From: Bacteroidota bacterium | Lineage (GTDB): Bacteria > Bacteroidota > Rhodothermia > Balneolales > HLUCCA01 | Assembly: GCA_020832235.1 (NCBI GenBank) | Contig: JAFIEZ010000007.1 | Coordinates: 310,001-374,000, forward strand | Length of the DNA stretch: 64,000 nucleotides | Direction: 5' to 3' | Shown here: positions 57,140-60,951 of the stretch, one piece after another | Numbering within the stretch: the stretch's first letter is position 1 | Layout of the letters: the number at the start of each line of letters is the position of its first letter | The notes under the pieces: model-generated | Seen by the model: the letters and a program-made list of their open reading frames with translations, nothing else | What the model was told of the DNA's origin: nothing | The model's database searches: none | Program-made: the position numbers and the translations under genes

Positions 57140-57160
57140 AAAATATTTTTCGTGCGCATA

Positions 57161-57189
57161 TTTACTTGTTAGGATTGTGCGTAATTTTG
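57161..57189 (+). promoter_or_regulatory. Candidate promoter of the peptidase-ligase cassette
   Basis: TTTA (57161-57164) and TAATTTTG (57182-57189, an exact TAnnTTTG) are 17 bases apart, 46 bases before the ATG of the C39-like gene. This suggests the three-gene cassette is transcribed independently of purD. Confidence 0.45.
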
Positions 57190-57235
57190 ATTTCGGGAGG
57201 CAAACATACCCCCGAGTTAACGCTTCTCTCAAACT

Positions 57236-57952
57236 ATGAACAGCAGCCTTTCGCTGAAAATGCAAAATCAGCCCGATGATTACTCATGTGGGCCGACCTG
57301 CTTGCATGCCGTGTATAATTACTACCAAAAATCGATTGATTTACAACAACTTATTGATGAAACGGAAAAGCTGGAAGATGGCGGAACGCTCGGTGTTTTA
57401 TTAGCCAATCACGCACTTGAACGCGGCTTTCGGGCACGTATTTATTCTTATAATCTGCTCATTTTCGATCCTACCTGGTTTGACTTACCTTCCATCAGAC
57501 TTCGTGAAAAGTTGGTAGAACGGGCACGGGCCAATCCCGCTAATGAGCGAATGACGCGGGCCGCGGAGGCGTACATTCGTTTCCTGGATCTTGGAGGTGA
57601 ACTTCGCTTTCGGGATCTGAATATCATGCTCATCCGTAAATATCTGGTTAAGGGTATTCCCATTCTTACCGGGCTCAGCTCCACCTGGCTGTATCGATGT
57701 GCCCGTGAACGTGATGATGCGGAAAACATGGTCTACGACGACATCAAGGGGAGTCCCTGTGGTCATTTCGTTGTGCTGAGTGGCTACGACAAAGAGCAAC
57801 GGAAAGTTCAGATATCTGATCCTTATCATGGAAATCCAGCTTTTGAAACCAGCACCTACTGGGTAGAGCGAAACCGTCTTATCAACGCCATACTGCTTGG
57901 AATTGTCACTTACGATTCCAACTTACTCATCATTCAACCTTCGGGAGAATAA
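57236..57952 (+). CDS. C39-like cysteine peptidase domain protein of an amidoligase cassette
   Basis: 238 residues, no signal peptide or membrane segment. The papain-like triad of family C39 is visible: C18 in QPDDYSCGPTCLHAVYNYY, H177 in GSPCGHFVVLSGYD and D195 in VQISDPYHG. Between residues about 70 and 170 lies a charged insertion not typical of bacteriocin-processing C39 domains, and there is no ABC transporter. It may cleave or transfer an amide in the cytoplasm. Its gene ends 3 bases before the ATP-grasp ligase. What it cuts is unknown: a peptide made by the two ligases, or a precursor, is an inference. Confidence 0.8.
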   Translation: MNSSLSLKMQNQPDDYSCGPTCLHAVYNYYQKSIDLQQLIDETEKLEDGGTLGVLLANHALERGFRARIYSYNLLIFDPTWFDLPSIRLREKLVERARANPANERMTRAAEAYIRFLDLGGELRFRDLNIMLIRKYLVKGIPILTGLSSTWLYRCARERDDAENMVYDDIKGSPCGHFVVLSGYDKEQRKVQISDPYHGNPAFETSTYWVERNRLINAILLGIVTYDSNLLIIQPSGE

Positions 57953-57955
57953 TCG

Positions 57956-59419
57956 ATGTTACCATTGATCGTTGTGAATAATCCTGCCGACTGGAATTTG
58001 AGTCTGGAAAATGTACGGGTTGTTTCGGCCCGCCAATACTTGACTGAGGTCGCCGCAGAATACCCAGAAAAGGTGAGGGTCTATAATTTGTGCCGGTCGT
58101 ACCGCTATCAGAGCGCGGGCTATTACGTGTCGCTGCTTGCCGAAGCACGCGGACATAAACCCATACCGGGCATCGCCACCATCGAAGACATGAAATCGCA
58201 GCACATGGTGCGATTTGTGTCGGACGACCTCGACGAGTTAATTCAGTCGAGTCTGGCCCCGATAAAATCCGAAGCATTTACCTTGAGCATATATTTCGGT
58301 CGAAATCTGGCCAAACGGTACGACAGACTTTGTTCTTACCTGCATGCCTCATTTCCGGTTCCATTTGCACGTGCACAGTTCACACTTACGCAAGGGAAGT
58401 GGGTGCTTAGGCATTTTGCACCCATACCAGCCAGTGAAATTCCTCAGGAGCATAAACCCTTTGTAGTGGATGTGATGCGCGGCTATTTTGCCGGAAAGAA
58501 ACCATCTGTTCCCAAAAAAACGGCCCTTCGTTACGATATGGCTATTTTGTGGAACCCTGATGAGGCAGATGCACCCTCCGACGAACGTGCACTACAGAAA
58601 TTCATAAAGGCAGCGGAATCACTGGGAATGGGCTGTGAACGCATAACACGGCACGACTACGGCAGACTTGCAGAATTTGATGCCCTATTTATTCGGGAAA
58701 CGACCAACGTAAATCATCATACGTATCGATTTGCCCGTCGTGCTCAGGCAGAAGGATTGGTTGTGATGGACGATCCCGACTCCATTCTCAAGTGCACCAA
58801 CAAGGTGTATCTGGCCGAGCTGCTGGCCCGTCACCGCATTCGCGGTCCGAAAACCGTAATCATTCATCGCGATAATCTGGGGGATGTGGAGCTTCATCTC
58901 GGGTTTCCCTGCGTGCTTAAACAGCCAGACGGCGCGTTTTCAACGGGTGTTATCAAAGTGGCCGATTCTCGTGAACTCACCGAAAAAGCAACCGCCATGC
59001 TGGAGAAATCGGATCTGGTTATTGCTCAGGAGTTCGTGAAAACCGACTTCGACTGGCGAATAGGCATTATCGATCAGAAGCCATTGTATGCCTGTAAGTA
59101 TTTCATGGCCAGGAAACATTGGCAAATTATCAAAAGAGATCAGGCCGGAAAGACATCTTTTGGTATTAGTGAGACGGTACCGGTTGAATTGGTACCCAAG
59201 CAGGTAATTAAAACAGCGCTGAAGATCGCCAACCTCATGGGGAACGGACTCTATGGCGTAGATCTCAAGCAAATTGGTAATGAATGTGTAGTTATTGAAG
59301 TAAACGATAATCCGAGTATCGACAGTGGTCTGGAGGACGCCCTTCTAAAAGATGAGCTCTACAAAAGAATTATGGAAGTATTCTTAAAACGCATAGAAGA
59401 AAAAAAGGCAGGTCGCTGA
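57956..59419 (+). CDS. RimK-family ATP-grasp ligase with RLAN N-terminal domain
   Basis: 487 residues. Residues 1-185 match the RLAN (RimK-like ATP-grasp N-terminal) type: VVNNPADWNL, then VYNLCRSYRYQSAGYYVSLL and FARAQFTLTQGKWVLRHFAP. A pre-ATP-grasp segment (about 190-270) and an ATP-grasp domain (about 270-475) follow, with the ATP lysine K322 in PCVLKQPDGAFSTGV, IAQEFVKTDFDWRIGI and the Mg site D435...E448-V-N450-D-N452 in VIEVNDNPSID. Such enzymes activate a carboxylate as acyl-phosphate and join it to an amine. The substrate is unknown. Its stop and the next start share a base (TGATG), so the pair is co-translated. Confidence 0.88.
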   Translation: MLPLIVVNNPADWNLSLENVRVVSARQYLTEVAAEYPEKVRVYNLCRSYRYQSAGYYVSLLAEARGHKPIPGIATIEDMKSQHMVRFVSDDLDELIQSSLAPIKSEAFTLSIYFGRNLAKRYDRLCSYLHASFPVPFARAQFTLTQGKWVLRHFAPIPASEIPQEHKPFVVDVMRGYFAGKKPSVPKKTALRYDMAILWNPDEADAPSDERALQKFIKAAESLGMGCERITRHDYGRLAEFDALFIRETTNVNHHTYRFARRAQAEGLVVMDDPDSILKCTNKVYLAELLARHRIRGPKTVIIHRDNLGDVELHLGFPCVLKQPDGAFSTGVIKVADSRELTEKATAMLEKSDLVIAQEFVKTDFDWRIGIIDQKPLYACKYFMARKHWQIIKRDQAGKTSFGISETVPVELVPKQVIKTALKIANLMGNGLYGVDLKQIGNECVVIEVNDNPSIDSGLEDALLKDELYKRIMEVFLKRIEEKKAGR

Positions 59420-60717
59420 TGGGCATACTACGCTTATTTGAAGGCTTTGGTGTTGAGTTAGAATACATGATTGTAGATCGTACAACACTGGAAATCAAGC
59501 CCATTGCACATGAACTCCTGAGGGATGCAGACGGGGAGGTAGTTGCGGAGATTGATAAAGGTCCCGTGGCCTGGTGTAACGAATTGGTTGCGCATGTCAT
59601 TGAGCTCAAAACGAATGGTCCGGCAAGCAGTCTCACTGATCTGGCATCCCTTTTTGCCCGCGAGATTGCTGAAATCAATCGCCTTCTTGAACCTCACCAT
59701 GCCTGCCTGATGCCAACGGCTATGCACCCCTGGATGGACCCGCTCACGCAGACCGTTATCTGGGAGCACGAGTATAACGAGGTTTATGAAGCATTCAACG
59801 CCATTTTCGACTGCCGCGGTCATGGGTGGTCGAATCTCCAAAGTACCCACTTGAACCTGCCGTTTTCAAACGATGAAGAATTCGGCAGACTCCACGCCGC
59901 CATCCGTGCTATTTTACCTTTATTACCCGCTTTATCGGCCAGTTCCCCTGTAATGGAAGGGCGTATAACCGGAATTCTGGATAACAGGCTGGATGTGTAT
60001 AAAACGAACGCTTTGAGGGTTCCGGAAGTAAGTGGTATGGTAGTTCCCGAACCCATGTTTAGCAGGTATGAGTATGAACATATTTTACTGGGAAGTATTT
60101 ACGAAGCCATAAAACCGTTTGATACGAAAGGAATTTTGCAGGAAGAATGGCTCAACGCCAGAGGTGCTATCGCTCGGTTCGACCGAAATGCCATTGAAAT
60201 AAGGGTTCTCGACGTACAAGAGTGTCCCGCAATGGACCTTGCCATTTTACAGGCAATCGTATCGGTAATCAAACTTCTCTGTATGCCAGGCGATACTCCT
60301 CAAGCTGGCGATATGCTGAAGCAGGATGATTCCTCGGGTGATGAACTGCAACGTAAACTCAGGCAGCTGTCTACCGAGAAGCTGGCTTATGTACTCAATG
60401 AAGTCATTCTTACAGGAGGCGATACCGTGATTTCAGATGCAGCATACATCCGGGCACTAGGACTGCATGAAAAAACGGGGCTAACGGTTTATGACGTTTG
60501 GAGAATGCTTTTGAGTAAAGCCTCGTCTAGTGGTTTTGCATTGGCAGACGACCAGGCGGCACACCTTGAAATCATCTTTAAACACGGTAATCTTTCTCAA
60601 CGCCTGCTTAATGCCTTACGGCGGCAGCCAAACGGGAAAACACTGGCGAGTGTTTATCGTAGGTTAGTGGAATGTCTTCACGGTAATCAACCCTTTTTGC
60701 CGGAATCACCCCCATAA
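59419..60717 (+). CDS. GCS2-type carboxylate-amine ligase
   Basis: 432 residues of the glutamate-cysteine ligase 2 / COOH-NH2 ligase fold (glutamine-synthetase-like). The start GFGVELEYMIVDRTTLEI has the paired glutamates of the family. ACLMPTAMHPWMDP, then HGWSNLQSTHLNLPF and IARFDRNAIEIRVLDVQECP provide further metal and substrate-site residues. Relatives include YbdK and EgtA (gamma-glutamylcysteine formation). It could add glutamate or another acid to an amine. With the RLAN ATP-grasp ligase it forms a two-ligase pair, as in predicted peptide-synthesis operons. Confidence 0.85.
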   Translation: MGILRLFEGFGVELEYMIVDRTTLEIKPIAHELLRDADGEVVAEIDKGPVAWCNELVAHVIELKTNGPASSLTDLASLFAREIAEINRLLEPHHACLMPTAMHPWMDPLTQTVIWEHEYNEVYEAFNAIFDCRGHGWSNLQSTHLNLPFSNDEEFGRLHAAIRAILPLLPALSASSPVMEGRITGILDNRLDVYKTNALRVPEVSGMVVPEPMFSRYEYEHILLGSIYEAIKPFDTKGILQEEWLNARGAIARFDRNAIEIRVLDVQECPAMDLAILQAIVSVIKLLCMPGDTPQAGDMLKQDDSSGDELQRKLRQLSTEKLAYVLNEVILTGGDTVISDAAYIRALGLHEKTGLTVYDVWRMLLSKASSSGFALADDQAAHLEIIFKHGNLSQRLLNALRRQPNGKTLASVYRRLVECLHGNQPFLPESPP

Positions 60718-60804
60718 TACGATAGTCAAGTAACCGGTTAATAAGACTAAGATAAAGAGATGCAATGCGATAGTTTGCCTCAGATCTGTTTTTATTCGGC
60801 ATAC

Positions 60805-60951
60805 TTAAAGCCTTGTTTGCTCGTTGTACTGATAACTTCTTTTGTTCGGAACCTTTCTTAATGTAGAGTCAGTCAAAATAAGGTCTTCCAGGGTATGCTT
60901 TTCAGGTAACTCAATGTTATTTACGTTATATTGGTAGTGCTCAAAAAGCAC
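60805..60951 (-). CDS. Possible 48-residue small protein, minus strand
   Basis: From GTG 60951 to TAA 60805: VLFEHYQYNVNNIELPEKHT, then LEDLILTDSTLRKVPNK and a basic/aromatic tail. Composition is protein-like and free of low-complexity, but there is no Shine-Dalgarno or recognised family, and it lies antisense in the gap between two plus-strand operons. The GTG sits on one arm of a small hairpin (GTGCT/AGCAC, 60937-60951). Otherwise the gap 60718-61003 shows nothing clear. Confidence 0.22.
   Translation of the reverse strand: MLFEHYQYNVNNIELPEKHTLEDLILTDSTLRKVPNKRSYQYNEQTRL

Follow-up and report, generated by a model that had tools for sequence, protein, structure and literature searches.

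A peptidase and two amide-bond ligases kept together across phyla: a candidate pathway for a capped short peptide

Glutamate is activated at its gamma-carboxyl by those GCS2 enzymes whose function is known, and enzymes of the RimK type join a carboxylate to glutamate through the latter's amino group. RimB trims the tails that RimK makes on ribosomal protein S6. Operons in which RLAN-RimK proteins accompany other amide ligases and peptidases are reportedly the subject of a 2009 survey by Iyer, Abhiman, Burroughs and Aravind, said to have predicted them to be makers of peptides or tags; that survey likely already described operons of the kind reported here. We know of no product of an RLAN-GCS2-C39 cassette, and found no experimental study of such an operon in the literature searched. 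In a better understood case, the enzyme Ngg N-acetylates and ligates glutamine to give N-acetylglutaminylglutamine amide (NAGGN; PMC8070244). Here we analyse a cassette at positions 57236–60717 of a 64,000-nucleotide stretch of DNA (the window) from a Bacteroidota bacterium (order Balneolales; assembly GCA_020832235.1, contig JAFIEZ010000007.1, positions 310,001 to 374,000). It encodes a C39-like cysteine peptidase, an RLAN-RimK ATP-grasp ligase and a GCS2-family carboxylate-amine ligase. On balance, we favour the view that it forms a self-contained pathway for the non-ribosomal synthesis of a small peptide, mobile as one unit, and that its product is a capped short peptide, probably containing glutamate. 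We document the locus counts, an empty site in a relative, a difference within one genus and a fourth partner gene encoding a protein of the N-formylglutamate amidohydrolase family (FGase).

Three packed genes and their families

All three genes lie on the + strand. The 238-residue C39-like peptidase is encoded at 57236–57952; the gene for the 487-residue RLAN-RimK ligase follows after 3 bases (57956–59419) and overlaps by 1 base that for the 432-residue GCS2 ligase (59419–60717). These open reading frames (ORFs) match exactly the packed genes described in an earlier note made from the sequence alone. The family labels given there are each backed by a Pfam match, and the catalytic residues it named (C18, H177 and D195 of the peptidase; K322, E448, N450 and N452 of the RLAN-RimK ligase) are all invariant in relatives. 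The C39-like gene stands directly upstream of RLAN-RimK and GCS2 directly downstream, and RLAN is fused to a RimK-like ATP-grasp domain, with both Pfam domains above the curated cut-off. NCBIfam matches are sub-threshold only, and the three proteins are therefore divergent members of large families and not known enzymes.

The peptidase matches Peptidase_C39_2 (E=3e-13) and is predicted to be an active papain-like enzyme, because its oxyanion glutamine (Q12) and its cysteine, histidine and aspartate are invariant among 29 C39 relatives. In the PDB, its AlphaFold2 model (predicted local distance difference test, pLDDT, 94) comes closest to C39-like peptidases, to the pseudomurein endoisopeptidase PeiR and to phytochelatin synthase captured as its glutathione-derived acyl-enzyme, with template modelling (TM) scores that are modest throughout. 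It scores 13.4 bits with the phytochelatin synthase model PF05023, below the cut-off of 24.9.

The ligase consists of an RLAN domain (PF14401, E 1e-45; residues 25–171) and an ATP-grasp half (RimK, PF08443, E 8e-10; about 190–480). K283, K322, R368, D436, E448, N450 and N452 are invariant, with K322, E448, N450 and N452 counted over 14 RLAN-RimK relatives. RimK uses R189 and N262 to contact the last bound glutamate (PMC10092738); the invariant R368 and N450 align with these two residues. The ligase also has an HW motif at 388–389, in common with LysX and ArgX. With the NCBIfam model rimK_fam (TIGR00768) it reaches 70.2 bits, about half the cut-off of 143.4, and so falls below the threshold for a RimK alpha-L-glutamate ligase. 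The model of the RLAN domain (window 57956–58525; pLDDT 87) weakly resembles ArgX, LysX and RimK (TM 0.55–0.59 by query, E 3e-4, root-mean-square deviation 9–11 Å), and the domain may be a degenerate ATP-grasp copy. Internal duplication is kept as a lead: the fold likeness comes with a high deviation, and a profile comparison gave no sequence link.

The third protein matches GCS2 (E 6e-31), and its residues E13, E15, E55, E62, R163, R253, R256, E260 and R262 are invariant in relatives. Among its relatives, structures have been solved for YbdK and for the glutamate-cysteine ligase of plants. It scores 57 bits with the NCBIfam YbdK subfamily model, against a cut-off of 176, and the glutamate-cysteine ligase and glutathione synthetase models are all below cut-off, so that the cassette does not classify as gshA/gshB-type glutathione biosynthesis. 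These results bear on the earlier note's suggestion of an unusual low-molecular-weight thiol. In one such scheme, GCS2 would make gamma-Glu-Cys, RLAN-RimK would extend it and the C39 protein would act like phytochelatin synthase. Glutamate-cysteine ligases do belong to the GCS2 family, and the C39 model lies near phytochelatin synthase, with a weak Pfam match to it. However, such likeness is to be expected of any papain fold and is exceeded by that to other C39 peptidases, the surroundings hold no recurrent redox or metal gene, and nothing points to cysteine. Moreover, the host genome (3.4 Mb; one RLAN protein, two GCS2 proteins) has the bacillithiol enzyme BshC, which makes bacillithiol the host's likely thiol. 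The suggestion is weakened accordingly, and we regard a glutathione-like thiol as improbable. The second GCS2 protein of the host is a 380-residue frame (208 bits) outside the window, at G000:C11:46229-47065 (L155).

Conservation and a contrast within one genus

A phylum survey covered an even sample of 394 genomes together with 14 well-known control genomes. RLAN occurs in 43 of the 394, at one copy each, and in none of the controls. Its ligases are of two kinds: RLAN-RimK, of about 490 residues, and GNAT-RLAN-RimK, of about 655. At the 28 non-GNAT loci read, GCS2 is adjacent in every case and C39 lies upstream in 25. A scan of named genomes, chosen by likeness to the window RLAN protein and not at random, gave 80 further loci and at least 582 candidate relatives. 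Over both surveys, the flanks were long enough to judge at 88 non-GNAT RLAN loci; GCS2 adjoins RLAN at 83 of them, and the full triplet is present at 72. The earlier note had staked its proposal on the triplet being kept together, and so it is. Triplet loci in the named genomes span at least 13 phyla, including Planctomycetota, Pseudomonadota, Bacteroidota, Thermodesulfobacteriota, Spirochaetota and Nitrospirota, with median intergenic distances of +2 and −4 bases. Because gene order and tight spacing recur so widely, the adjacency is far beyond chance, and the metabolite or modification is probably of real physiological value. The proteins have also diverged in parallel: their pairwise distances correlate (Mantel r 0.60–0.74, 0 of 999 permutations). 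Conserved order, kept residues and parallel divergence together uphold the core of the earlier note, an uncharacterised peptide or amide-bond pathway acting as a unit.

The cassette lies in a block (57140–60858, + strand) that tblastn synteny and an empty-site alignment show to be absent in a same-genus relative, G223. The flanking genes have the same order there (identities: TPI 79%, PurD 77%, an NHL gene 41%, SdhC 90%, SdhA 95%). In G223 the distance from the NHL gene to sdhC is just 135 bases; the sdhC upstream region begins about 40 bases past the NHL gene, and this upstream block matches the window from 60859 on. A conserved sdhC upstream element, AATGTAGAGTCAGTCAAAATAAG at 60859–60881, is identical in the two genomes. 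Elsewhere in its genome, G223 carries a single-gene GNAT-RLAN-RimK fusion, an alternative form of the ligase that the earlier note missed. In the RLAN tree, the GNAT clade is nested among the triplet ligases as sister to family f36 (Shimodaira–Hasegawa-like approximate likelihood ratio test 98); the window RLAN stands apart from most Balneolales triplets, at an exact place that the tree does not settle. The cassette was likely gained at the window site by transfer; its loss in G223 could instead account for the empty site. The triplet here and, in G223, the empty site together with a GNAT-fused ligase elsewhere in the genome provide a natural experiment for the product.

The GNAT part of the fusion is RimI-like (TIGR01575, E 3e-19, below cut-off). 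As a companion to the GNAT-RLAN fusion of relatives, a GNAT-C39 (DUF3335) protein was ruled out, being absent from 12 of 12 genomes. The relative G155 combines these parts in another way: a GNAT-C39 (DUF3335) fusion lies directly 3' of an RLAN-containing ligase fragment (L070:4571-5689). No surveyed genome has both the triplet and the GNAT type; with a chance expectation of only about 1, this does not demonstrate mutual exclusion.

Sporadic distribution and apparent insertion as a cassette would also suit an anti-phage defence or conflict module. Yet PADLOC and PHROG searches match none of the three proteins, the RimK relatives found in phage genomes are all generic and align with about half of the ligase, and the neighbours are metabolic housekeeping genes. 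We rejected a defence or phage origin, which is the least probable of the explanations considered.

Immediately upstream, a motif search of the 96-base gap 5' of the C39 gene found a single TAnnTTTG, TAATTTTG at 57182–57189 (+ strand). It is a possible but weak Bacteroidota-type −7 box lacking a clear −33 box, and the motif is at chance level across the window. A search of the + strand of this gap found no sigma-70-like site. The case for the plausible own promoter proposed earlier is thus a weak one.

A candidate route to a capped peptide

Clustering of locus neighbours brought out a partner that the earlier note had overlooked, a gene of about 239 residues directly 3' of GCS2 that encodes FGase (PF05013, E 1e-21; nearest solved structure 2ODF). 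It is present at 54 of the 88 non-GNAT RLAN loci, common but not universal and hence non-defining. A Legionella plasmid is annotated with a RimK family protein, a glutamate-cysteine ligase family protein and an N-formylglutamate amidohydrolase in a row. The bond that FGase would target, acyl-NH-glutamate, is the one that a RimK-type step would make, a chemical clue that narrows the search for the product. By analogy with Ngg, the GNAT-fused form could place an acetyl cap where the triplet would place a gamma-glutamyl one. The fused form and the FGase bond match together point to a capped short peptide.

A short peptide that the ligases build and the peptidase handles is the best supported of the three options in the earlier note, and we infer substrates, order of steps, product and role as follows. 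In a first step, GCS2 would phosphorylate glutamate at its gamma-carboxyl and form an amide there with an amine or with the amino group of an amino acid, so that the intermediate bears a gamma-glutamyl cap. RLAN-RimK would then activate, by phosphorylation, the carboxylate left free on this intermediate and attach a second amino acid there through its amino group; glutamate is the likeliest candidate. The pathway would yield a soluble di- or tripeptide of the gamma-glutamyl-X-Glu type. On this the C39-like enzyme would form an acyl-enzyme, followed by hydrolysis or transfer. At loci with FGase, that enzyme would cut the acyl-NH-Glu bond and set glutamate free, undoing the RimK-type step.

Several observations weigh against this pathway. 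The GCS2 protein matches known ligases weakly, far under their cut-offs, so that gamma-glutamyl chemistry is an extrapolation. RLAN without a cassette-type GCS2 occurs in 6 of 7 tested genomes, and Pseudomonas has a stand-alone RLAN ligase; GCS2 is therefore not always needed. A family search at the locus and genome-wide found no FGase in this host, to whose genome a two-hydrolase scheme therefore cannot apply as such, and several of the nearest ligase relatives (L052, L054, L071 and L074) also lack FGase, at least beside the cassette. Finally, the loci share no recurrent transporter or regulator gene beside the cassette.

A broader proposal, which we put forward only tentatively, is that two ligases and two hydrolases form a widespread metabolite cycle. 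The C39 enzyme would undo the gamma-Glu addition of GCS2 and FGase the Glu addition of RLAN-RimK; the products would be a new class of gamma-glutamyl peptides, and within one genus a GNAT acetyl cap would replace the gamma-glutamyl cap.

Protein-end modification, another option of the earlier note, would have RLAN-RimK add glutamate or a different amino acid to the C-terminus (or GCS2 to a side chain) of some housekeeping protein, with C39 and FGase as trimming enzymes. The ligase is of the RimK-type family (TIGR00768) with R368 and N450 conserved, the GNAT of the alternative fusion resembles RimI, which modifies a ribosomal protein, and RimK/RimB is a precedent for a ligase paired with a protease. 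Against this, no target or carrier gene recurs beside the cassette, a sporadic, mobile cassette would be odd for an essential conserved target, and the GCS2 enzymes known to us act on small molecules. We judge this option unlikely and a weaker alternative to the short peptide.

Small ORFs near the cassette were searched across loci for a carrier or a precursor peptide; the search brought up nothing but pieces of FGase, DUF155 and unrelated genes, and no conserved candidate for a partner peptide. This also counts against a graspetide-like ribosomally synthesized and post-translationally modified peptide, or secreted-peptide system, in which the ATP-grasp enzyme would modify a ribosomal precursor and C39 would cut its leader. 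Although the ATP-grasp macrocyclase MdnB is among the fold matches of the RLAN domain, and C39 peptidases cleave double-glycine leaders, no transporter adjoins the cassette and the C39 protein contains no ABC transporter part. Such a system is very improbable.

Other genes accompany RLAN at particular loci. A DUF155 (RMND1/Sif2 family) gene lies near the cassette in three phyla, upstream in 6 of 7 cases, and is a possible fifth associated gene. It is about 0.9–1.2 kb 5' of RLAN on the same strand at L059, L061, L063, L092 and L146, upstream on the opposite strand at L119 and about 7.8 kb downstream at L073. In an Ignavibacteriales genome, a 419-residue open frame 3' of the cassette joins FGase to an HD-domain hydrolase (L089:9705-10964). 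A Pseudomonas aeruginosa plasmid encodes a stand-alone RLAN ligase (L153:5902-7491) near genes for gamma-glutamyltransferase and a glutamate ABC transporter; judging by gene order, this ligase may be the counterpart of PA1345. For PA1345, a predicted Cpx site is listed in PMC12802237, where the protein is described as hypothetical and ATP-binding.

Comparison with known systems

The peptidase shares with phytochelatin synthase (C83) and C39 peptidases a papain-like fold with Gln-Cys-His-Asp. The likeness is at fold level only (TM about 0.45–0.53), and the cassette enzyme is free-standing and linked to ligases. The GCS2 protein belongs to the same family as YbdK, EgtA and plant-type glutamate-cysteine ligases and keeps the metal-binding glutamates; it differs from them as a distinct branch with a longer C-terminus, far below the YbdK cut-off.

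The RimK/RimB system of S6 glutamylation resembles the cassette in its RimK-type ATP-grasp enzyme, its kept glutamate-contact positions and a hydrolase able to undo the ligation. The cassette, by contrast, has the extra RLAN domain, a GCS2 partner, an unrelated peptidase fold and a ligase far under the RimK family cut-off. With RimK, the closest characterised ATP-grasp relatives are LysX and ArgX, which act with the carrier LysW and have the HW motif in common with our ligase; the cassette has no LysW-like carrier gene nearby and is not a lysine or arginine operon.

The NAGGN system (AsnO, Ngg and an aminopeptidase; PA3459-PA3461), the precedent for this logic that is backed by experiment, is, like the cassette, a small operon with an ATP-grasp-type peptide ligase, an N-capping activity and a peptidase; its product is a capped dipeptide. 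It differs in its parts: TIGR03103, the Ngg model, is not among the matches of our ligase, and an AsnO-type asparagine synthetase and an M42 aminopeptidase are absent from the operon and its flanks. The cap would come from GCS2 and not from a GNAT. Ngg itself is a GNAT joined to an ATP-grasp enzyme, and the GNAT-RLAN-RimK fusion of relatives follows the same domain logic.

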